A stretch of 20,159 nt of DNA from the IMG/VR virus record IMGVR_UViG_3300032560_000154, positions 1 to 20,159 of that record; one strand, given 5' to 3'. Both the position numbers and the translations under genes were made by a program. The stretch's first letter is position 1; each line of letters opens with the position of its first letter. The stretch is from a virus. Below the pieces are notes generated by a model. The model ran no database searches, was not told where the DNA came from, and saw only the letters and a program-made list of their open reading frames with translations. Shown here piece after piece: positions 2,437-17,487 of the stretch.

Positions 2437-4100
2437 GCCTTAACCTCGATCCACCCGCCGACCCTGATGGCTATTGGGAAAGCCTCGGGGTTACCAACTC
2501 ACCAAAACTGGGCGTGGCCGACAAGAGGCCAAAGCCATCGAAAACCCCAACGGACAAGGCGGTCACCATTAAGGTGATCGCCGGCCAACTCGATAAGGTG
2601 GCCACCAAGGGCGAGCAGGCGTTGGTTGACTCGGGCATGCCCATTTACCAGCGCGGGCAGTCCATCGTTCGTCCGATCCTGACGGAAGTGCCGGCATCCC
2701 GTGGCCGAACCACATTAGCTGCGGGGCTATCACAGATCGGCGCGGCCGCACTAACCGACCGGCTTTGTCAGGCGGCAGAATGGGAGCGGTTCGACAAGCG
2801 TAGTGCGGATTGGGTGCGCATTGACCCACCATCCGCCGTTTCGGTTACTATTTTGTCACGCAATGGGCTGTGGAAGTTTCCACGGGTTGCCGGCGTCATC
2901 ACAACACCCACACTCAGGCCGGACGGCAGTTTGCTGACGGCGGATGGCTACGACGCGGCCACACGGCTGTTTCACGCCGCCGACGCCAAGCTGGATGTGA
3001 TGGCCCACATACCAGAGGAACTAAGGAAGGACGATGCCGTTGCGGCGTTGAAGAAACTGCAACGGCTGCTGAAGAACTTTCCCTTCGTCACCCCGACCGA
3101 TGAGGCGGTGGCCATTTCCGCCGTCATCACGCCGGTCATTCGTGGGGCAGTCTCGGTTGCGCCCATGCACGCTTTCCGCGCCAGCACCGCCGGCACCGGG
3201 AAGACTTATCTAGCCGACGTGGCCAGCGCCATCGCCACGGGCCGTCCGTGTCCGGTGGCGACGGTGGCCAAGACCGAAGAAGAAACTGAAAAGCGGCTGG
3301 GTGGCCTGCTCATCGCCGCTCACCCCATTATCTGCCTGGACAACGTGAACGGCGAATTGGGCGGTGACCTTCTCTGCCAAGCCATCGAACGTCCCATTGT
3401 CCAGATCAGGCCGCTGGGCACGTCCGAGATCATCGAAATCGAATCACGCGCCACCATATTTGCCACCGGCAACGCAATGCGTGTGCGCGGCGATATGACA
3501 CGGCGGGCGATTCTCTCCAACCTAGACGCCGGCCTAGAACGCCCGGAACTGCGCGAGTTTGACTTTGATCCTGTCGAGCAGGTCTTAAACAATCGGGCAG
3601 AGTATGTGGCTGCATGCCTCACAATTGTGCTTGCCCATGCGAAAGCTGGCTTTCCGGGGGCGCGTGATCTCCGGCTGGCGTCTTTCCAAGATTGGTCCAA
3701 CTTTGTCCGTTCGGCCTTGGTGTGGCTCGGCTGCCCGGACCCGTGCGATTCGATGGAGCAGGCACGGGAAGACGACCCCGAATTGAGCGAATTGAGCGAA
3801 TTGATCGAAGCGTGGAAGGCTGAGTTCGATGTTGTCATGTCGTTCACCACGGCAGAGTTGATCGACCTCGTGGGCCAACGGCTGTTTTCGGATGAGCCGG
3901 GGGAGCCTGGGCAGTTTAAGTATCCCTTAATGCGGGAGATCGTGCTGCGCGTCAGTGAAAGCCGACAACAGGGGGATAGCAGGAAGTTGGCGTCTTACCT
4001 TCGCAGCAAGGAAGGCCGCATCGTAGGTGGCTTTATGGTTCGTAAAATGGGCATGGCGTCCGGTGGCGTCGTGCGTTGGAGCGTTTTTAAGAAACCATGA
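2433..4100 (+). CDS. SF3-like AAA+ replicative helicase (primase-polymerase type C-terminal module)
   Basis: This 555-aa protein carries a clear ATPase core. Walker A is STAGTGKT at 251-258 with K257, Walker B is IICLDNV with D303, sensor 1 is FATGN ending at N347, and GDMTRR at 353-358 offers candidate arginine fingers. The stretch through LGGDLLCQAI, PLGTSEI and RPELREF is typical of the helicase half of phage and plasmid primase-polymerase proteins. The C-terminal region (FVRSALVWLGCPDP onwards) also matches that group. The N-terminal 200 residues lack visible primase motifs, so the primase may be separate or elsewhere. It probably unwinds the phage origin. The gene is followed directly by the repeat-rich non-coding region. 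Confidence 0.85.
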   Translation: MSLNLDPPADPDGYWESLGVTNSPKLGVADKRPKPSKTPTDKAVTIKVIAGQLDKVATKGEQALVDSGMPIYQRGQSIVRPILTEVPASRGRTTLAAGLSQIGAAALTDRLCQAAEWERFDKRSADWVRIDPPSAVSVTILSRNGLWKFPRVAGVITTPTLRPDGSLLTADGYDAATRLFHAADAKLDVMAHIPEELRKDDAVAALKKLQRLLKNFPFVTPTDEAVAISAVITPVIRGAVSVAPMHAFRASTAGTGKTYLADVASAIATGRPCPVATVAKTEEETEKRLGGLLIAAHPIICLDNVNGELGGDLLCQAIERPIVQIRPLGTSEIIEIESRATIFATGNAMRVRGDMTRRAILSNLDAGLERPELREFDFDPVEQVLNNRAEYVAACLTIVLAHAKAGFPGARDLRLASFQDWSNFVRSALVWLGCPDPCDSMEQAREDDPELSELSELIEAWKAEFDVVMSFTTAELIDLVGQRLFSDEPGEPGQFKYPLMREIVLRVSESRQQGDSRKLASYLRSKEGRIVGGFMVRKMGMASGGVVRWSVFKKP

Positions 4101-4123
4101 ATTATTCCCCCAAAAAGGGGTCC

Positions 4124-4264
4124 AAAATGGGTTGGATGGGTGCGAGGGGTCTCTGCCAGTAGCTATACTCTAAGTGTCATTTCATTTCTGCCATTTCAGG
4201 GTAACTCGTAAGGGGTAACCCATTTTACCAATCCAACCCATTGGGAGGCACGATTCGACCCATT
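4124..4264. repeat. Iteron-like ACCCATT motifs with inverted partners
   Basis: ACCCATT occurs three times in the same direction at 4218-4224, 4236-4242 and 4258-4264, spaced 18 and 22 bases, about two helix turns. An inverted copy lies at 4126-4132. The arms AATGGGTTGGAT (4126-4137) and ATCCAACCCATT (4231-4242) are a perfect 12-bp inverted repeat. AAAATGGGTT (4124-4133) also pairs with AACCCATTTT (4217-4226). Such a cluster just downstream of the helicase gene could bind an initiator. Confidence 0.5.
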
Positions 4265-4501
4265 CCGGGAGACCGGGGTGGGTCTTTTCGTATGCGCTGG
4301 TCGGGCTGGGTGTGTATGCGAAGGGGGGGGGTATAGCCATAACATCAACGCTAGGCCTGTTTTTTTGACCGTGTGGGTGGGTGTGGGGTGCGGCGTGTTA
4401 GGTAGGACCGGACGGGGTGTTGAAGCCGCTCTATGGCCGTTTAAAAGGCTGCGTGGTTTTTTGGCTGGAATGTATGGGGGTTTGGCCAGCAAATTTTCGA
4501 A

Positions 4502-4519
4502 CGCCCCCGAATGGGGGTG
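4502..4519 (+). repeat. GC-rich hairpin CGCCCCC-GAAT-GGGGGTG
   Basis: A 7-bp stem (one G-T wobble) with a four-base loop lies in the gene-poor region. There is no T-tract, so I do not call it a terminator. It may be part of origin structure. Confidence 0.3.
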
Positions 4520-4606
4520 CCCGGTCGGTGCTGGGCGGTCTTTTGACATAGCCCCTGCCGTTTCTTTTTTGAGACAAAGCCTCCCCTACCTTTCCCTTAT
4601 CATCAG

Positions 4607-4618
4607 TTACAATTGTAA
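4607..4618. promoter_or_regulatory. Perfect 12-bp palindrome TTACAATTGTAA
   Basis: The palindrome is AT-rich in a GC-rich setting and lies 16 bases upstream of a possible short reading frame. It has the form of a dimer binding site; no binding protein can be named. Confidence 0.35.
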
Positions 4619-4634
4619 TGCGCTAGGATAGGAA

Positions 4635-4742
4635 ATGAAACCGTTACGATTGCGCAAGCCGTTGATATCATTGGCTTTTACATGTCGCAGAAGAGGTATT
4701 ATGGAATTATTTATTGCCGGCGGGGTGGTCATGGCAGGCTAA
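4635..4742 (+). CDS. Possible 35-aa small protein
   Basis: The ATG at 4635 follows AGGATAGG, a fair ribosome binding site, and reads 35 codons to TAA. The product starts with a basic segment (MKPLRLRKPL) and ends with a short hydrophobic stretch (ELFIAGGVVMAG). Nothing similar comes to mind. The short length and the surrounding repeats make a chance open frame quite possible. Confidence 0.2.
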   Translation: MKPLRLRKPLISLAFTCRRRGIMELFIAGGVVMAG

Positions 4743-4789
4743 GGCACTGAAATCATTAGATACTGACCGATGGTGCAGGCTCTTGCTTG

Positions 4790-5132: not shown

Positions 5133-5239
5133 AGCAACCCGTTGAAAACGCATGAGAATAAAAAACGCTTGTAATGGGTTTCTTATGTCTTTATGCGCTG
5201 GGCCTCCACATCAACCGCTCACAAGAGAGGCAACCAAAC

Positions 5240-5488
5240 ATGACCGACTACGCACTACGTTGTGAAATCTCATCCGCCCGCGAGGGTCAACCCCACTGGC
5301 ACTTTGCCGGCGACCCGGACGCCGGGCGCGCGTGCGTTGAGCACGACGGTAAACGCTGGACATATCGCGTCGAGCGCGGCGAACGCCGGGCCTTTCGCGC
5401 ATGGCTGGCCGAGGCATTTTCCGGTTTTGGCACACAGGCCCGTGTCGCCGGGCGGTGGCCGCACTACGAAATCAAGACACGGAGTTAA
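5240..5488 (+). CDS. 82-aa protein, first copy of a duplicated gene
   Basis: The family is not recognised. The ATG at 5240 is chosen because GAGAGG lies nine bases upstream and because the second copy at 8095 begins at the equivalent codon; a longer frame to 5174 lacks a site. The product is soluble-looking. Its middle is conserved with the other copy (GQPHWHFAGDPDAGRACVEH) and is rich in H, W and D. By hand count the two copies differ at 7 of 82 residues and 30 of 249 bases, mostly silent, so both are probably kept by selection. It opens the operon that contains the AAA+/VWA pair. Confidence 0.8.
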   Translation: MTDYALRCEISSAREGQPHWHFAGDPDAGRACVEHDGKRWTYRVERGERRAFRAWLAEAFSGFGTQARVAGRWPHYEIKTRS

Positions 5489-5492
5489 CCAC

Positions 5493-5639
5493 ATGACCCA
5501 CCTCACACACCGTCAATTGCGCCGTCGCCGCGCCGCCATCCGCTATGGCCTATACCCTGCCCAGCCCTGCCACGCATGCCGCATCGCCGCCGTGCTCGCC
5601 GCCGTTGTCGCCGCCGTGGCGCTCGGCCTCTATTACTAA
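5493..5639 (+). CDS. Small single-span membrane protein (48 aa)
   Basis: The product starts MTHLTHRQLRRRRAAIRYG, strongly basic, and ends in a hydrophobic segment of about 18 residues (IAAVLAAVVAAVALGLYY). This suggests one membrane helix with the basic part in the cytoplasm. GGAG at 5481-5484, inside the end of the upstream gene, sits eight bases before the ATG. Only four bases separate the two genes. An anchor or holin-like role can be imagined but is not shown. Confidence 0.5.
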   Translation: MTHLTHRQLRRRRAAIRYGLYPAQPCHACRIAAVLAAVVAAVALGLYY

Positions 5640-5653
5640 GGAGCACACCCAGC

Positions 5654-7081
5654 ATGGCCCGCACCCCTCGACTGTCACCAGCAGAAGCCCTAGCGGCGGC
5701 GGTGGCGATTTATGGCCCGCGCAACAGCGACCACCTGCCCAGCATCACCGCCGCCACGAAAGAGCCGGCCTGCCAGTGGCTGACTAGCCACGGCATCCGC
5801 AGCAGCATTGCCCGCGCCCTGCCGCTCGCAGACCTCGCCGGCGTCTGGTCCGACACGACTGACACCAAATTACTCGCTCTCGTTCCCGGCCTGCTTGCTC
5901 GCGTCTCTGTTGTTGGCACGACTGATGCCGCAGTTCGTATCGTGGTGCAGCAGATTGTTGACCATCCCAACCACGATTTTAAACCGTTCACCGCCTGGAT
6001 ACCGAAAAAATCGGCACGGCACGACAGCACGACCAGCACCGCGCATCTGCCGCACTGGTGGCTTAAGCGCACCTCGCCCGAGCTTGCGGCGCTCGTAGGC
6101 ACCGACGACGACACCCCCACACCCACCCCCACACCCACCCCCACACCCACCCCCACACCGGAACCGCGCCCCATGACCACACCGACGACACCGCCCGCAC
6201 CCAATCCCGACGCAGCCGCAGCACTCGCCGCCGCAATCGCCGGTTTCATGGGCGGCCAGCAACTCGACCGCAGCGCCGTGGCCGCGATTGTGCGCGACGA
6301 ACTGCAAAATCACACTATTCCCCGCGCCGTGCATATCCACGTCAACGACGCACCGCGCGGCGAACTCCCGGCGTTGCGTCACCGCCTCACTGGAAAACTA
6401 TTAGCAACCGTCGCCGCCGGCCTCGCCGCTTATATTGTCGGCCCGGCTGGCAGCGGAAAAACCACCGCCGCCGAGCAAGTTGCCGAGGCTTTAGGCCTCA
6501 AATTCTACATGCAGGGCGCAGCCAGCGGCGCACATGAATACATGGGCTTCATCGACGCGCGAGGCACATATAACGCGACCCCTTTCCGCGAAGCCTTTGA
6601 AAACGGAGGCGTTTTTCTAGCCGACGAAATTGATGGTTCCGACGCCGCCGCCTTGCTCGCACTAAATGCAGCCTTGGCTAATGGCGTTTGCGCTTTCCCC
6701 GGTAGCGTTTCCCCCGTCAAAAAACATAAGGATTTTCGCTTCATCGCCGCCGCGAATACCTTTGGAACGGGAGCCAATCGTCAATACGTTGGCCGCAGCC
6801 AACTTGACGCAGCAACGCTTGACCGTTTTGTTTTTATCGACTGGCCCTACGACACCGTGCTGGAACGCATGCTCTGCACCGACGCCACGTGGCTCGCATA
6901 CGTCCAATCCGTCCGCGCCGCCGTGGAGAAACTCAACATCCGCCACGTTGTCAGTCCCCGCGCCTCTATTTTTGGCGAAAAACTTATCACCGCCGGCATC
7001 CCCCGCGCCGAGGTCGAGCAGATGGTCATTTGGCGTGGCTTGTCCGATGCCGACGTTATCCGCATCAAAACGGCGATGTGA
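5654..7081 (+). CDS. MoxR/CobS-like AAA+ ATPase
   Basis: This 475-aa ATPase has Walker A GPAGSGKT at 263-270, Walker B VFLADEID with D324-E325, sensor 1 FIAAANTFGTG with N368, and a LDRF motif after it. This matches the AAA_5/MoxR/CobS group, which usually remodels a partner protein recruited through a VWA protein. Residues 1-150 form an unknown domain. A linker of eight TP pairs (154-169) and a proline/alanine segment join it to the ATPase. The start at 5654 has AAGGAG ten bases upstream. The stop is immediately followed by the ribosome binding site of the VWA-like gene, so the two are surely made together. Confidence 0.85.
   Translation: MARTPRLSPAEALAAAVAIYGPRNSDHLPSITAATKEPACQWLTSHGIRSSIARALPLADLAGVWSDTTDTKLLALVPGLLARVSVVGTTDAAVRIVVQQIVDHPNHDFKPFTAWIPKKSARHDSTTSTAHLPHWWLKRTSPELAALVGTDDDTPTPTPTPTPTPTPTPEPRPMTTPTTPPAPNPDAAAALAAAIAGFMGGQQLDRSAVAAIVRDELQNHTIPRAVHIHVNDAPRGELPALRHRLTGKLLATVAAGLAAYIVGPAGSGKTTAAEQVAEALGLKFYMQGAASGAHEYMGFIDARGTYNATPFREAFENGGVFLADEIDGSDAAALLALNAALANGVCAFPGSVSPVKKHKDFRFIAAANTFGTGANRQYVGRSQLDAATLDRFVFIDWPYDTVLERMLCTDATWLAYVQSVRAAVEKLNIRHVVSPRASIFGEKLITAGIPRAEVEQMVIWRGLSDADVIRIKTAM
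6113..6160 (+). repeat. 12-bp tandem repeat coding a Thr-Pro linker
   Basis: A repeat of ACCCCCACACCC, about four units, encodes eight Thr-Pro pairs inside the AAA+ protein. Copy number could vary by slippage and would change linker length in steps of four residues without breaking the frame. Confidence 0.7.
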
Positions 7082-7094
7082 GGAGCAAAAAACC

Positions 7095-8006
7095 ATGAGC
7101 AGCCGCCCCCCCTATAAATACCACACCTCCGACCTCTACAGCGCACACCTGCCCGCCGGATTTGTTGACCTGCGCGGCAATGGCGACCGCAAGGCGGCCG
7201 CGGCCGCGCACTATGCGGATGTTTCCGAAATCATCCCGCCGGCCTCGCCGCCCGTCGGCGCGTGGAATAAATTTGCCTGGGAGAGCGCCGATAACGCATG
7301 GGCAGGCGCGACCTTCACCGCCGCCTGCGACATGCTGCGCAACGGCTGGATTGAGGGCGCAGACCGCGCCGCCGCAATTCGCGGCCGCATGGAAGCCGAC
7401 CGCCCCGTCGCTCAAAAACTTATTAGGTGGGACGTGGCAGGAGCCTACCCCAGCGTTGGCCGTTTTCTATCTGGCAATCCCGCGAACATGCGCCGCCTCG
7501 GCCAAGCCAACACCCCCCGCGTTTTGTCACTTTCATTTGATGGTTCCGCTTCCGCCATCGTCACCGCCGCCGACATGGAAGCACATGCAGCCAGCGCCGC
7601 CGCGATCATCGACACGCTCGAAGCGGCAGATTATCGCGTCGAGTTATTTTGGATATGGCGTGCCAATGGCGACAGCCTGCGCACCGAGGTTGCGGTTTGC
7701 ATCAAACAGGCAGACCAAGCCGTAAACCTTTCGACACTAGCTTTCAGCCTTGGCCATCCCGCCATGCTGCGCCGGATTGGTTTTTCCCTTATCGGGTCAA
7801 TTCCGCACTGGCGCGGTTTGGGTGGCAGCATGGGAACCCCTTGCCCCCTGATAGCCGACTCCGAACGTGGCGCATACGTCATCCCCAGCGCACAAACCAC
7901 GAAAGCTGGCAGCGATCCAATCAAAGCCTTTGACGCGCAAATTGCAGCACTGCGCCGGCAAGGCTGCCCCGGACTGGCAGACGAATCCGGCGCCCAGGCC
8001 GCCTAG
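7095..8006 (+). CDS. VWA-like partner of the AAA+ ATPase (DUF7192-type)
   Basis: The 303-aa product holds a stretch read as LSLSFDGSAS, with D149-G-S-A-S153 matching the DxSxS metal-binding motif of von Willebrand A domains. It follows a WDVAGAYPSVGRFLSGNP segment that I associate with phage proteins of the DUF7192 type found next to CobS/MoxR ATPases. After the motif come a helix (AAAIIDTLEAA) and a strand (YRVELFWIW), the order expected of a VWA fold. The start has AGGAG nine bases upstream, overlapping the stop of the ATPase gene. The likely role is to recruit or hold the substrate of the ATPase; the substrate is unknown. Confidence 0.7.
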   Translation: MSSRPPYKYHTSDLYSAHLPAGFVDLRGNGDRKAAAAAHYADVSEIIPPASPPVGAWNKFAWESADNAWAGATFTAACDMLRNGWIEGADRAAAIRGRMEADRPVAQKLIRWDVAGAYPSVGRFLSGNPANMRRLGQANTPRVLSLSFDGSASAIVTAADMEAHAASAAAIIDTLEAADYRVELFWIWRANGDSLRTEVAVCIKQADQAVNLSTLAFSLGHPAMLRRIGFSLIGSIPHWRGLGGSMGTPCPLIADSERGAYVIPSAQTTKAGSDPIKAFDAQIAALRRQGCPGLADESGAQAA

Positions 8007-8015
8007 CCTTGCCCT

Positions 8016-8062
8016 TGCCGGCGCGCACCACACCGCGCCGGCACTAGCAAGCCTCAGGCTTG
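8016..8062 (+). repeat. Two adjacent hairpins between the VWA-like gene and the second 82-aa gene
   Basis: The first has a perfect 10-bp stem, TGCCGGCGCG (8016-8025) with CGCGCCGGCA (8034-8043), and an eight-base loop. The second is CAAGCC-TCA-GGCTTG (8048-8062). Neither has a T-tract. They may stabilise the upstream message or cause partial termination before the AAAAGGAG site at 8079-8086. Confidence 0.5.
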
Positions 8063-8094
8063 ACCGCGACCAATAACTAAAAGGAGCAAACAAC

Positions 8095-8343
8095 ATGATC
8101 GACTATGCACTGCGTTGTGAAATCTCAGCCGCCCGCGAAGGCCAACCGCACTGGCACTTTGCCGGCGACCCGGACGCAGGCCGCGCATGCGTGGAGCACG
8201 ACGGCAAACGCTGGACGTATCGCGTGGAACGCGGCGAGATCCGATCCTTCCGCTCATGGCTGGCCGAGGCATTTTCGGGTTTTGGCACACAAGCCAGTGT
8301 CGCCGGGCGCTTTCCGCATTACGAAATCAAAACACGGAGTTAA
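8095..8343 (+). CDS. 82-aa protein, second copy of the duplicated gene
   Basis: This copy is 91% identical in protein to the gene at 5240 (T2I, S12A and five changes in the last 35 residues). The 3' flank through the next ATG (ACGGAGTTAAC, A or C, ACATGACC) is also shared, so the duplicated unit included the ribosome binding site of the following gene. The strong AAAAGGAG site lies eight bases upstream of the start. Function is unknown. Its position straight after the AAA+/VWA pair suggests the whole module was assembled or bracketed by recombination between the copies. Confidence 0.8.
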   Translation: MIDYALRCEISAAREGQPHWHFAGDPDAGRACVEHDGKRWTYRVERGEIRSFRSWLAEAFSGFGTQASVAGRFPHYEIKTRS

Positions 8344-8347
8344 CAAC

Positions 8348-8557
8348 ATGACCCCCGCCGACATTGCCACCCTACTGCGCACCAAAGCCGAGCGCAGCAC
8401 CGAGACTGCCCGCGCGATGCAGGCAGCGCACGGCTTCACCCCAGCCGAAGCCAGCTATAGCCGCGCCGCCGCTTATGCCGAGGCAGCCGACCTTATCGAG
8501 AAAAACTTATTGCCACCCGCCACCCGCACCACCCGCAAAACCACACCCAAGGAATAA
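8348..8557 (+). CDS. Hypothetical 69-aa helical protein
   Basis: The product starts MTPADIATLLRTKAERS and is largely alpha-helical and alanine-rich, with a basic, threonine-rich tail ending TTPKE. The ATG at 8348 has GGAG eight bases upstream, within the end of the second 82-aa gene. The last codons lie in a 23-bp sequence that recurs at two later gene junctions. I do not recognise the family. The TPADIATLL start resembles small phage proteins that begin with a short helix pair, which gives no function. Confidence 0.6.
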   Translation: MTPADIATLLRTKAERSTETARAMQAAHGFTPAEASYSRAAAYAEAADLIEKNLLPPATRTTRKTTPKE

Positions 8558-8560
8558 GCA
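8538..8560 (+). repeat. 23-bp junction repeat, copy 1
   Basis: The sequence contains CCCAAGGAATAAGCA and holds the end of one gene (TTPKE, stop) and the ribosome binding site of the next. Exact copies lie at 8901-8923 and 10322-10344. Confidence 0.75.
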
Positions 8561-8563
8561 CCA

Positions 8564-8920
8564 ATGAAAAACCAATTTGCCGACCTGATTGCCGAACTGG
8601 ACCGCGATGCCACCGACACCGCGCGGCGAACCCAGGATATCCGCAAAGTATTTTATGGCACAATTCCAATTCTCAAAGCCTTGAAAACTTATTGCGAAGG
8701 AATTGACGAAAGCCCGCAGTTTGGCGCGGCAATTCTAGCCTACGCCATGGGCATAATCTTCCGCGAAGAAACCGACATTGAAAGCAAAACCGAAGTATGC
8801 AGCGCCCTTGTGAGCCTGTTTGCCCACTCAGCGGCGAGCACCCGCACCATGTCGGAGGAATACGACGCCATACAAAGCCCTGACTTTATCCCACCCACCG
8901 AAACCACACCCAAGGAATAA
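8564..8920 (+). CDS. Hypothetical 118-aa protein
   Basis: The family is unknown to me. The sequence is acidic and mostly helical. A moderately hydrophobic stretch, FGAAILAYAMGIIF near residues 53-66, could be a buried helix rather than a membrane span. The C-terminal tail ends TETTPKE, the same last residues as the upstream gene, because both ends lie in the 23-bp repeat. AAGGAATAAG provides the ribosome binding site. It belongs to the accessory operon and its codon use is like its neighbours. Confidence 0.65.
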   Translation: MKNQFADLIAELDRDATDTARRTQDIRKVFYGTIPILKALKTYCEGIDESPQFGAAILAYAMGIIFREETDIESKTEVCSALVSLFAHSAASTRTMSEEYDAIQSPDFIPPTETTPKE

Positions 8921-8923
8921 GCA
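8901..8923 (+). repeat. 23-bp junction repeat, copy 2
   Basis: It is identical to the copy at 8538-8560 and again codes TTPKE-stop in the upstream gene while supplying AAGGAATAAG to the gene at 8927. Confidence 0.75.
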
Positions 8924-8926
8924 CCC

Positions 8927-9226
8927 ATGCCATACATAATCCATGATGACACAGCCATATGGGCAACAGGGGAAACCGAAGCCGAAGCATGGGAGGACTT
9001 TGCACACGAAATGAAAATGGGTAACGTAGGATTGCCAGAACGCGACGACTTCACGGCATGTCGCGCCACGCTCGCACTTGTCAAACAAGTTCGGGATTGC
9101 GGCGGGGCGATTGCATGGGGAGCAACACCGGACGGACTGGCATGCACAACCGATGAAAAAAATGGAGGCTGGGCTTGGCAAGACCGCATAGAGGCAGCGG
9201 GATACGCCGTCTTTCAGGCAGTCTAA
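8927..9226 (+). CDS. Hypothetical 99-aa protein
   Basis: The product starts MPYIIHDDTAIWATGETEAE and reads as a short strand-helix domain, with a predicted helix around EAWEDFAHEMK and a second half containing GWAWQDRIEAAGYAVF. I do not recognise a named family. The ribosome binding site is in the 23-bp repeat seven bases upstream. The stop is followed after five bases by the first arm of the two-state hairpin at 9232, so translation of this gene could influence that structure. Confidence 0.65.
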   Translation: MPYIIHDDTAIWATGETEAEAWEDFAHEMKMGNVGLPERDDFTACRATLALVKQVRDCGGAIAWGATPDGLACTTDEKNGGWAWQDRIEAAGYAVFQAV

Positions 9227-9993: not shown

Positions 9994-10349
9994 CCGCGAA
10001 CGACTACTTAAAAAACCTCATCCACACGAGCCACCTTCCAATCCGCGCGGCCAATGTGTTGCGCAACATGCAGCCGCCCATTTGCAGCGAAGATGACTTT
10101 CTGGCGCTGACCACGCACCAAATCATGGAGCAGCCCAACGCTGGTCGCATCACCGCGCGGCAAATTGACATTCAGCAAGGCGAAATCCGCAAAAAGCAGC
10201 AACAGCCGGCAGAGGATTACGTGCCCTTCATGGAGCAATTTGAAAAAATATCAGAAAAACTTGAAAATATCACTCAATTACTGGTTGCAATACATCGAAA
10301 GCAGCGAAACAATCAAACCGTAAACCACACCCAAGGAATAAGCAGATGA
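9990..10349 (+). CDS. Hypothetical 119-aa protein with coiled-coil C-terminus
   Basis: The start at 9990 is preferred over the longer frame from 9942, because it has AAGGA upstream and an ATGA overlap. The N-terminal half (MTANDYLKNLIHTSHLPIR) reads as small helices. Residues 60-105 are rich in K, Q and E and end in a probable coiled coil (FEKISEKLENITQLLVAIH). The last codons (NHTQGISR) run through the third copy of the 23-bp junction repeat in a different frame from the other two genes, so the end may have shifted. No family is recognised. Confidence 0.6.
   Translation: MTANDYLKNLIHTSHLPIRAANVLRNMQPPICSEDDFLALTTHQIMEQPNAGRITARQIDIQQGEIRKKQQQPAEDYVPFMEQFEKISEKLENITQLLVAIHRKQRNNQTVNHTQGISR
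10322..10344 (+). repeat. 23-bp junction repeat, copy 3
   Basis: It is identical to the copies at 8538 and 8901, but here the upstream gene reads it in another frame (NHTQGIS instead of TTPKE). It still provides AAGGAATAAG to the following gene. Confidence 0.75.
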
Positions 10350-10774
10350 CCGAAGAAGAAGACCGCGCTGTTATGGGCCTGCAAACCAAGAAGGCGCTTT
10401 ACGAGGACGCAAAGGCGGCGGGTGCCGATTTTGGCGAACCTCGGCAGCTATTAACCGCCGCCGAAGCTGACCTTGCCCCCGACGCCAAATTTAATCTTGG
10501 CGACGTTTTTATAACCACCGGGGCTATGCTGCGCCTGTCCGGTCCTAAATATGGCGACGCCATTTTGCTCATGCACCAGACCGGCGAGTGGGGCGCAGTG
10601 TGCGACGAAGACAAGGCCGCCAACAATCAGGCCATCGAATTGGGCAACCGCATTTTGTCGGCTTATCCCATCAACCCCCTTGAGGAATGCAAGGGCCACG
10701 GCGAAAATACCGTGTGGGTTATCACTGAGGCTGACAGGTTCAGCACCACCATTCTTCTACCGGAGGAATACTAA
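10346..10774 (+). CDS. Conserved phage/plasmid protein, often mislabelled type I restriction subunit M
   Basis: Residues 48-142 match a small family common in phages and plasmids: FNLGDVFITTGAML, then GEWGAVCDEDKAANNQAI, and the ending VWVITEADRFSTTILLPEEY. Databases often label such proteins type I restriction endonuclease subunit M, but they have no methyltransferase motifs and no proven role. The N-terminal 45 residues are an extra acidic helical part. The ATG overlaps the upstream stop (ATGA), and the 23-bp repeat supplies the ribosome binding site. Confidence 0.7.
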   Translation: MTEEEDRAVMGLQTKKALYEDAKAAGADFGEPRQLLTAAEADLAPDAKFNLGDVFITTGAMLRLSGPKYGDAILLMHQTGEWGAVCDEDKAANNQAIELGNRILSAYPINPLEECKGHGENTVWVITEADRFSTTILLPEEY

Positions 10775-15824: not shown

Positions 15825-16348
15825 CCGAAACCATTGGTGCTGGCGGAAGCGGCGCACACCCAACCAAGGAGCATGCGATGCAGGCTGCGGCAGATCGCAT
15901 CGGGAAAAAAGAGGCCCATGCCATGACCGATTTTGTAACCGTGCGGCGCGATGCGCTGAAGGCGTTGGTCGAGGTTAGCGTGGCATACCACGGCATTCCC
16001 CTCGTCGCCCCTATCACAGAGGCATACACCCGCGCGATAGATGACGCACTCGCCGCCATGATCGTCTCGCCGTGGCGGGAGATTGATGACGCGGCGAGGA
16101 ATGGGCAGCTATGGCTTGTCGCTACCAAGATGGAACCGCCCGGAAAATGGAGACGCCAGATTGCGCGCTACATCCCGCGATACACCGAACAAAACGATGA
16201 GGATTTCGCGGAGCGTTGTGAAGAAAATGACGAGTATTATACCCCCGAAGGCTGGTATGAAATGTGCTACGAGCATGACGAATATATCGCCATGGGGATG
16301 AAAAAAGCGCCGTCGTTTTATGCGGCCATACCGGAGCCACCGAAATGA
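15821..16348 (+). CDS. Hypothetical 175-aa protein with DUF551-like C-terminus
   Basis: The C-terminal half (residues 85-175) has the DUF551 style: WREIDDAARNGQLWLVATKM, then a charged insert, and the ending SFYAAIPEPPK. The N-terminal half is alanine-rich and helical. The ATG overlaps the upstream stop (ATGA). A downstream ATG near 15924 could also be used. The function of DUF551 proteins is unknown; they are common in early phage operons. The stop overlaps the first copy of the duplicated gene. Confidence 0.6.
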   Translation: MTETIGAGGSGAHPTKEHAMQAAADRIGKKEAHAMTDFVTVRRDALKALVEVSVAYHGIPLVAPITEAYTRAIDDALAAMIVSPWREIDDAARNGQLWLVATKMEPPGKWRRQIARYIPRYTEQNDEDFAERCEENDEYYTPEGWYEMCYEHDEYIAMGMKKAPSFYAAIPEPPK

Positions 16349-16722
16349 CCCCACGCGAAACAATGATTGAAGCAGCGGCAAAAGCAATCTGCGCCACCTT
16401 TCGTATGCCATCTAACAAGCATACCGATTGTTTTTCCTGGGATGGTCTTTTTCTTTGGGATGATCTTTTGGAGGAAGAACGTAACGCATTTCGTGCAACT
16501 GCCCGAACCCATTTAGACGCCCTCCTCGCCGCCCTGCTGGACCTCGGGTTGAAGATCGTGCCGATCGAGGCGAATGAAGCGATGGCCGAAGCCTGGGCAG
16601 GTGCGTCTATTGACACAGCCAGCGCTGGCCTGCCGGACAACGAGGTCAACATGTTACACGCGCAGTCGGACTGGTCGGCCATGCTCGCCGCAACCCTTGA
16701 TGTGCTGGAAGGTGAAAAATGA
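16345..16722 (+). CDS. 125-aa protein, first of a tandemly duplicated family
   Basis: The product starts MTPRETMIEAAAKAICAT and ends MLAATLDVLEGEK, with a conserved middle (LDALLAALLDLGLKIVPIEA). These ends are repeated in the following gene. The first 28 bases are the same in the two genes, and a 38-bp sequence at the 3' end (16687-16724) recurs at 17049 and 17324. The family is a small helical early-phage protein without known role. The variable centre contains FSWDGLFLWDDLLEEER, which may determine partner choice. ATGA overlaps join it to both neighbours. Confidence 0.65.
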   Translation: MTPRETMIEAAAKAICATFRMPSNKHTDCFSWDGLFLWDDLLEEERNAFRATARTHLDALLAALLDLGLKIVPIEANEAMAEAWAGASIDTASAGLPDNEVNMLHAQSDWSAMLAATLDVLEGEK

Positions 16723-16724
16723 CC
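16687..16724 (+). repeat. 38-bp repeat at the end of the duplicated genes
   Basis: The repeat includes CTTGATGTGCTGGAAGGTG and the ATGACC junction. Copies lie at 16687-16724, 17049-17086 (exact) and 17324-17361 (one mismatch). Each copy closes one family member and opens the next frame. Confidence 0.75.
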
Positions 16725-17084
16725 CCACGCGAAACAATGATTGAAGCGATAACGCGGGCGCTTTTGTGGAATGCATGGCCGATCCCAGAAGGGAAAATCG
16801 ACAGCGATTTTTTTGACCTCATGAAGAAGGCAAACCCTGAGTGGTGGGCTATCAACCAACAGGACGCAACAACCGCCCTAGACGCCCTCCTAGCCGCCCT
16901 GCCGGGGCTGGGTTTGAAGGTGGTGCCGGTGGAGGCGACGGCGAAAATGGCTAACGCCGCCGTCGATAGAACAGGCGCGGGCGGGGATATGTCATGGCGC
17001 AATCTATCGCCGCAACATCTGTTCCGAGAAGGCCATATCGCCATGCTCGCCGCAACCCTTGATGTGCTGGAAGGTGAAAAATGA
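16719..17084 (+). CDS. 121-aa protein, second of the tandemly duplicated family
   Basis: It shares with the gene at 16345 the start MTPRETMIEA, the middle LDALLAALPGLGLKVVPVEA and the end MLAATLDVLEGEK. The region between residues 11 and 50 and that before the last 15 residues differ strongly. Unequal crossing-over within the 38-bp repeat would create or remove such copies. The function is unknown. The start overlaps the stop of the first copy, and the stop overlaps the short third fragment. Confidence 0.65.
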   Translation: MTPRETMIEAITRALLWNAWPIPEGKIDSDFFDLMKKANPEWWAINQQDATTALDALLAALPGLGLKVVPVEATAKMANAAVDRTGAGGDMSWRNLSPQHLFREGHIAMLAATLDVLEGEK

Positions 17085-17128
17085 CCGCGCGCGAAGCGGT
17101 GATTAAAGCAATGAAAGGCAACACTTAA
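17081..17128 (+). pseudogene. Broken third family copy, N-terminal fragment (15 aa)
   Basis: The frame reads MTAREAVIKAMKGNT and stops, matching the family start MTPRETMIEA. A C-terminal piece of the same family appears at 17318. The gene at 17128 starts within this fragment's stop codon, so it looks like an insertion or replacement inside the third copy. Confidence 0.55.
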
Positions 17129-17316
17129 TGACGCGCGTTGACCCTCCGCTGCCACTGCTGACTCCCAAGGGCAAAGCAATGGCGCATTTTGTTATTGATT
17201 ATGGTTATGAGCATGATTTGATGTGGGTATGCTTTCAAGACGACAGCGGGGAATGTTGGACTTGGCGCAATGACGCAGTGCGCATGGGCGATAACTTAAC
17301 AGCAAGGGGAAAGTGA
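17128..17316 (+). CDS. Conserved small phage protein inserted in the duplicated family (62 aa)
   Basis: The product reads MTRVDPPLPLLTPKGKAMAH, then FVIDYGYEHDLMWVCFQDD and SGECWTWRNDAVRMGDNLT. I associate this pattern with small conserved proteins of alphaphages with no assigned function. It looks like a compact beta domain with conserved aromatic and acidic residues. The ATG overlaps the stop of the upstream fragment (TAATG). It lies exactly where the third family copy is interrupted. Confidence 0.65.
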   Translation: MTRVDPPLPLLTPKGKAMAHFVIDYGYEHDLMWVCFQDDSGECWTWRNDAVRMGDNLTARGK

Positions 17317-17317
17317 C

Positions 17318-17359
17318 ATGTTTGCCGCAGCCCTTGATGTGCTGGAAGGTGAAAAATGA
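17318..17359 (+). pseudogene. Broken third family copy, C-terminal fragment (13 aa)
   Basis: The frame MFAAALDVLEGEK is the end of the duplicated family, and its DNA (17324-17361) matches the 38-bp repeat at one mismatch. It may be translated as a peptide that keeps ribosomes flowing to the ATGA junction, or it may be a mere remnant. Confidence 0.5.
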
Positions 17360-17487
17360 CCGCACATGATATCTGGTCCAGCGTCTTCTTGATTTTTGGT
17401 GCGGTGTTTGTCGGGCGCGGAGTTGCCGAGCCTAATTGGGCAGCCGTTTTGATAGGGGCGCTGCTGTTGGCGGCAGGAAGCGCATGA
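17356..17487 (+). CDS. Small membrane protein (43 aa)
   Basis: This short gene reads MTAHDIWSSVFLIFGAVFVG and then a second hydrophobic segment (WAAVLIGALLLAAGSA). It would make two short membrane helices with a small turn (RGVAEPN). The start overlaps the upstream fragment's stop (ATGA) and its own stop overlaps the next start in the same way. That coupling on both sides argues for a real gene. A phage membrane role is likely but not specified. Confidence 0.5.
   Translation: MTAHDIWSSVFLIFGAVFVGRGVAEPNWAAVLIGALLLAAGSA

Follow-up and report, generated by a model that had tools for sequence, protein, structure and literature searches.

A MoxR-type ATPase and a DUF7192 protein form a widespread phage gene pair that lies, in one virus, between two copies of an apparently mobile 82-aa gene

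The DNA analysed here, referred to as the window, is the 20,159-base virus record IMGVR_UViG_3300032560_000154, taken from position 1 to 20,159. Since genes elsewhere in it encode a terminase small subunit, a YqaJ recombinase, an SSB and ThyX, the window is probably the early part, or replication region, of a tailed phage. The locus under study (Table 1) holds an ATPase gene followed by a DUF7192 gene, with a complete copy of an 82-aa gene on each side. As the initial annotation of this DNA had stated, the two copies differ at 30 of 249 nucleotides and at 7 of 82 residues; together they form a direct repeat of 263 nt, longer than any other in the window. The differences lie mostly at third codon positions, and comparison of copy 1 with copy 2 by NG86 gave dN 0.049, dS 0.494 and a dN/dS ratio of about 0.10, in keeping with the mostly silent changes noticed at the outset. 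Judged from its codons, the 82-aa gene is under strong purifying selection.

Table 1. Features of the locus in the window and their counterparts in related contigs (L006 and L007 are the nearest relatives of the window).
Feature	Position	Strand	Remark
Leader/RBS of the variable slot	5208..5239	+	Similar leader before another gene in L006 and L007
82-aa gene, copy 1, occupant of the variable slot	5240..5488	+	Absent in the nearest relatives
48-aa small gene, starts ATGACC	5493..5639	+	Seam where L006 and L007 rejoin the window
MoxR/CobS-type AAA+ ATPase, 475 aa	5654..7081	+	PF07728 AAA_5, phrog_249
DUF7192 protein, 303 aa, predicted VWA-like partner	7095..8006	+	PF23822, phrog_1909
Conserved segment preceding beta-1 in the DUF7192 gene	7455-7481	+	
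DGSAS in the DUF7192 gene	7539-7553	+	Residues 149-153
HPxMLRR family signature in the DUF7192 gene	7755-7775	+	
Leader of copy 2	8064..8094	+	Common to the unrelated contigs L008-L012
82-aa gene, copy 2	8095..8343	+	Also at this position in L006 and L007
69-aa small gene after copy 2	8348..8557	+	

The Walker A, Walker B and sensor-1 motifs of the ATPase, initially described as intact, were indeed found (GPAGSGKT at residue 263, VFLADEID at 320 and AANT at 366), together with an arginine finger (LDRF at 389) and a sensor-2 motif (SPRAS at 434), and all five are conserved across 67 ATPase homologues. The protein matches PF07728 (AAA_5) with an E-value of 1.5e-10 and phrog_249 with 2.4e-52, and its best sequence match in the PDB is midasin. 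On the evidence of the five intact motifs it is a member of the MoxR clade of AAA+ proteins (AAA_5). An N-terminal region is joined to the AAA+ domain by a (TP)n linker. The TPTPTP linker is encoded by a (CCCCAC)n microsatellite (window 6112-6160), which differs from its L006 and L007 counterparts in both sequence and length.

We scanned IMG/VR with an alignment of DUF7192, the loci being found by an HPxxL motif, and obtained 80 loci. The ATPase gene lay beside or close to the DUF7192 gene in 79 of them; in the sole exception (L031) the DUF7192 gene starts 258 bases from the end of the contig, which is cut there. This linkage is not built into the search because the query was DUF7192 alone. 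In eight isolate phages and one crAss-like genome the ATPase gene is likewise found upstream, with no more than two genes between, the isolates being phages of Staphylococcus, Listeria, Mycobacterium, Gordonia, Rhizobium and Tunturiibacter. The two genes are adjacent in Tunturi_4, Staphylococcus P108, Listeria P70 and LP-048, Gordonia Kudefre and the crAss-like cr10_1, are separated by one gene in Mycobacterium Lumos, and by two small genes in Rhizobium P106B and X2_24. Among 38 representative loci no third gene recurred beside the pair in over 11, and neighbours otherwise vary. The ATPase and DUF7192 are therefore a genuine and widespread phage partnership, so far uncharacterised. Phage Lumos (L109) carries two DUF7192 genes (3938-4765 and 7600-8460), one near the ATPase gene and the other about 4 kb away.

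The second protein was assigned to PF23822 (DUF7192) with 82.6 bits against a curated cut-off of 27 (E 3.9e-23), and also to phrog_1909; no mention of DUF7192 was found in the papers searched. It had been singled out initially for a DxSxS metal motif. The letters DGSAS are present, but at the aligned place a full DxSxS occurs in only two of 71 distinct DUF7192 proteins, those of the window and of contig L006, where the product of the column frequencies predicts about 2.2; the L007 protein, 90% identical overall, carries DGALS instead. The motif is thus no feature of the family, and by its alignment DUF7192 has no conserved metal site and does not show the DxSxS-T-D pattern of a MIDAS. The family signature consists of G116, M132, H221-P222, L225-R226 and F230; since HPxxL served to find the loci, its conservation owes something to the search, which in part selected the H, P and L but not the remaining signature residues.

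No VWA model of Pfam matched the DUF7192 members better than E 0.14, and hhalign of the DUF7192 profile against one classical phage VWA protein, that of Thermus phage P74-26, gave no match. An AF2 model (pLDDT 72) has a beta-alpha-beta-beta-alpha core, with beta strands at 142-149, 180-191 and 195-204 and helices at 158-177 and 212-235, an order that is VWA-like. Its best PDB matches are the NorD VWA domains in NorQ complexes (E 0.014, 0.07 and 0.075), which lie below significance and have low TM-scores (0.22-0.25); among viral models Foldseek ranked DUF7192 itself first and phage CobT proteins next. The strand and helix order and the NorD and CobT matches, leads rather than proof, suggest that DUF7192 may have a VWA-like fold. 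The initial pairing of a MoxR-type ATPase with a VWA-like partner fits both the linkage at 79 of 80 loci and the NorD match of the model.

The pair resembles several known systems. NorQ and NorD of Paracoccus denitrificans are likewise a MoxR-clade AAA+ protein encoded with a VWA-like partner, and of all solved structures the NorD VWA in complex with NorQ matches the DUF7192 model best. DUF7192 differs from NorD in its lack of a conserved MIDAS and of the large N-terminal domain, being about 280-300 aa long. In NorQD a finger of the VWA domain (NorD residues 403-448) enters the pore of the ring, and the C-terminus of NorD contacts the loop after sensor 1 (PMC13036017). From the residue numbers, the NorD finger appears to precede the MIDAS strand. 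The DUF7192 segment 107-138, conserved, modelled with low confidence and lying just before beta-1, may by its place correspond to this finger. NorD with a mutated MIDAS keeps its binding to NorQ, whereas action on the target fails (PMC9976466); a partner devoid of a MIDAS could therefore still engage its own ring. Phage CobS/CobT pairs (archaeal tailed viruses, cyanophages, Roseobacter phage CRP-810) also combine a CobS-like ATPase with an adjacent VWA partner, and share the phrog_249 annotation and, through CobT, the next viral fold match. The CobT-like VWA proteins of phages, however, run to about 560-730 aa, twice the length of DUF7192, which lacks a conserved DxSxS. The P74-26 VWA protein does have the motif (VDESGSMG), and DUF7192 has no detectable sequence similarity to it. 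The MoxR-vWA ternary conflict systems share the MoxR and vWA core but have a conserved third component and mostly intact MIDAS aspartates (PMC7159879), neither of which was found for the DUF7192 pair.

The 82-aa gene was found on ten IMG/VR contigs, of which only L006 and L007 carry the pair; a search of 50,697 phage records did not find it, and neither did searches of plasmids and host genomes. DUF7192 was absent from the other eight contigs, which are fragments, as was the ATPase of the pair, with only a weak phrog_249 match in L010. This L010 AAA+ protein, which lies near a transposase-like gene, was rejected as the pair ATPase, being a classical AAA that belongs to a different family (phrog_3757). 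The pairless contigs form two groups (L098/L004/L005 and L008-L012/L100), both with almost no nucleotide similarity to the window beyond the 82-aa gene, the DNA of which is 84-92% identical between these otherwise unrelated backbones. Its GC content is 0.61-0.62 in L008, L009 and L100, where that of the contig is 0.48-0.49, and a leader like the one at the variable slot also precedes it in the unrelated contig L003. The gene is best read, from these sequence comparisons, as an independent small gene that moves horizontally among phages. An AF2 model of its product, built from nine near-identical sequences, reached a pLDDT of 54 and was set aside. In L008, and also in L009, L010 and L100, the 82-aa gene is followed by a small gene (L008 3131-3300) that varies at clustered, mostly amino-acid-changing positions; these contigs are otherwise 96-99% identical.

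The presence of two copies was examined by comparing the window with L006 and L007. Backbone identity is mostly 94-100% but falls to 77-93% across about 5.0-9.0 kb, which marks a region of exchange. Within it, copy 2 lies directly downstream of the pair in both relatives. Copy 1 is missing from L006, where window position 5245 is joined straight to 5490, and is replaced by a 61-aa gene in L007. The seam is ATGACC, the start of both copy 1 and the following 48-aa gene. Copy 1 is 87.8% identical to copy 2 and 87.8-89.8% identical to the unrelated contigs, and in a weakly supported tree of the 82-aa gene the two copies are not each other's nearest relatives. As copy 1 is no nearer to copy 2 than to unrelated contigs, and as the slot differs between L006 and L007, the best reading is that copy 1 was acquired separately and occupies a variable slot, the choice between gain and loss resting on three relatives. 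The silent changes had been taken to mean that both copies were kept for a long time. This does not agree with the lack of copy 1 in relatives whose backbone is 97-99% identical, and the silent divergence (dS 0.49) reflects purifying selection across phage lineages rather than long co-residence. The idea of a movable cassette held in so far as the 82-aa gene moves and the locus lies in a divergent block; the 82-aa gene, however, moves alone.

Four alternatives were weighed. The 82-aa protein could be the substrate or third subunit of an ATPase/VWA machine, as the initial annotation had proposed, the four genes then forming one cassette. The flanking of the pair on both sides in the window, the position of copy 2 in L006 and L007 and the strong purifying selection would all suit this. 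Yet the gene is near the pair at only 2 of the 80 IMG/VR loci and missing at 78, an absence that the initial annotation had itself named as refuting its proposal; no phage or plasmid record searched contains it, and on eight of its ten contigs, which represent two unrelated backbones, the pair is not present. We regard the proposal as highly improbable. Its double presence does not tie it to the motor. If instead both copies were ancestral, L006 and L007 would have lost copy 1 separately. The slot, empty in L006 and holding a 61-aa gene in L007, must have seen at least two events, which is consistent with such losses. Against them, copy 2 is not the nearest relative of copy 1, which stands at least as far from the group of the window as from unrelated phages, and the dS between the copies contrasts with the near-identical backbone, so that separate loss is possible but doubtful.

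As to the pair itself, phrog_249 is labelled porphyrin biosynthesis, hijacking of the host CobN has been suggested for the cobST pairs of tailed viruses (PMC8651126), and phage CobT comes next after DUF7192 in the Foldseek ranking. A CobS/CobT-type cobalt/magnesium chelatase accessory that boosts cobalamin synthesis is nevertheless quite unlikely: CobN (PF02514) and CobT_C (PF11775) were found in none of nine pair-carrying phage records, although a host CobN could serve, the MIDAS is not conserved, and the pair occurs in Staphylococcus and Listeria phages, which have no evident link with cobalamin. Five bacterial genomes with DUF7192 matches also contained no CobT_C. DUF7192 might otherwise be a finger-type partner outside the VWA fold, as McrC is for McrB, a finger-in-pore partner that need not be a VWA protein (PMC13036017). 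The fold E-values above 0.001, the low TM-scores and the lack of a sequence match to VWA models would allow this, but the VWA-like order of strands and helices, and the fact that the top PDB matches and the top viral matches other than DUF7192 are all VWA partners of MoxR-type ATPases, make it unlikely.

We favour, with moderate confidence, the reading that the ATPase and DUF7192 are a remodelling motor of the MoxR/VWA kind with a degenerate adaptor, and that the 82-aa gene is an unrelated mobile gene. In such a motor the ATPase would form a hexameric ring, and DUF7192 would be the degenerate VWA-like adaptor, its segment before beta-1 acting as a NorD-like finger in the ring. The adaptor would be twisted as ATP is hydrolysed, remodelling a bound target without recourse to a conserved metal site. 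The 82-aa gene, travelling alone, would have entered the slot upstream of the pair in the lineage of the window (or been lost in the two relatives), its two copies being an accident of position. More tentatively, DUF7192 might be a phage-specific VWA adaptor without a metal site, working with a CobS-like ring in a dedicated motor that phages of widely differing bacterial phyla share and that would act on a target, of host or phage, which they have in common; the 82-aa protein might be a host-interaction or counter-defence factor whose gene moves from start codon to start codon among unrelated phages. The pair is carried by well-used lytic phage genera (Kayvirus, Pecentumvirus), often under the label porphyrin biosynthesis. 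Seen as a motor that is probably MoxR/VWA-like and has a degenerate metal site, the pair would gain a testable function, and both this label and the idea of the 82-aa gene as a substrate would be corrected.

Further features were noticed along the window. At a second variable slot (window 9158-9167) L006 and L007 have about 345 extra bases that are absent in the window. Gene ends at 8538-8566, 8901-8929 and 10322-10350 carry a 29-nt repeat (AAACCACACCCAAGGAATAAGCA), its copies 79-97% identical; it spans a stop and the next start, and may be a recombination seam for small genes. Finally, window 16343-17387 holds tandem paralogous small genes of 125 aa and 121 aa, the products of which start with MTPRETMIEA and end with LAATLDVLEGEK, and a third, partial copy of their boundary repeat lies at 17315-17387.
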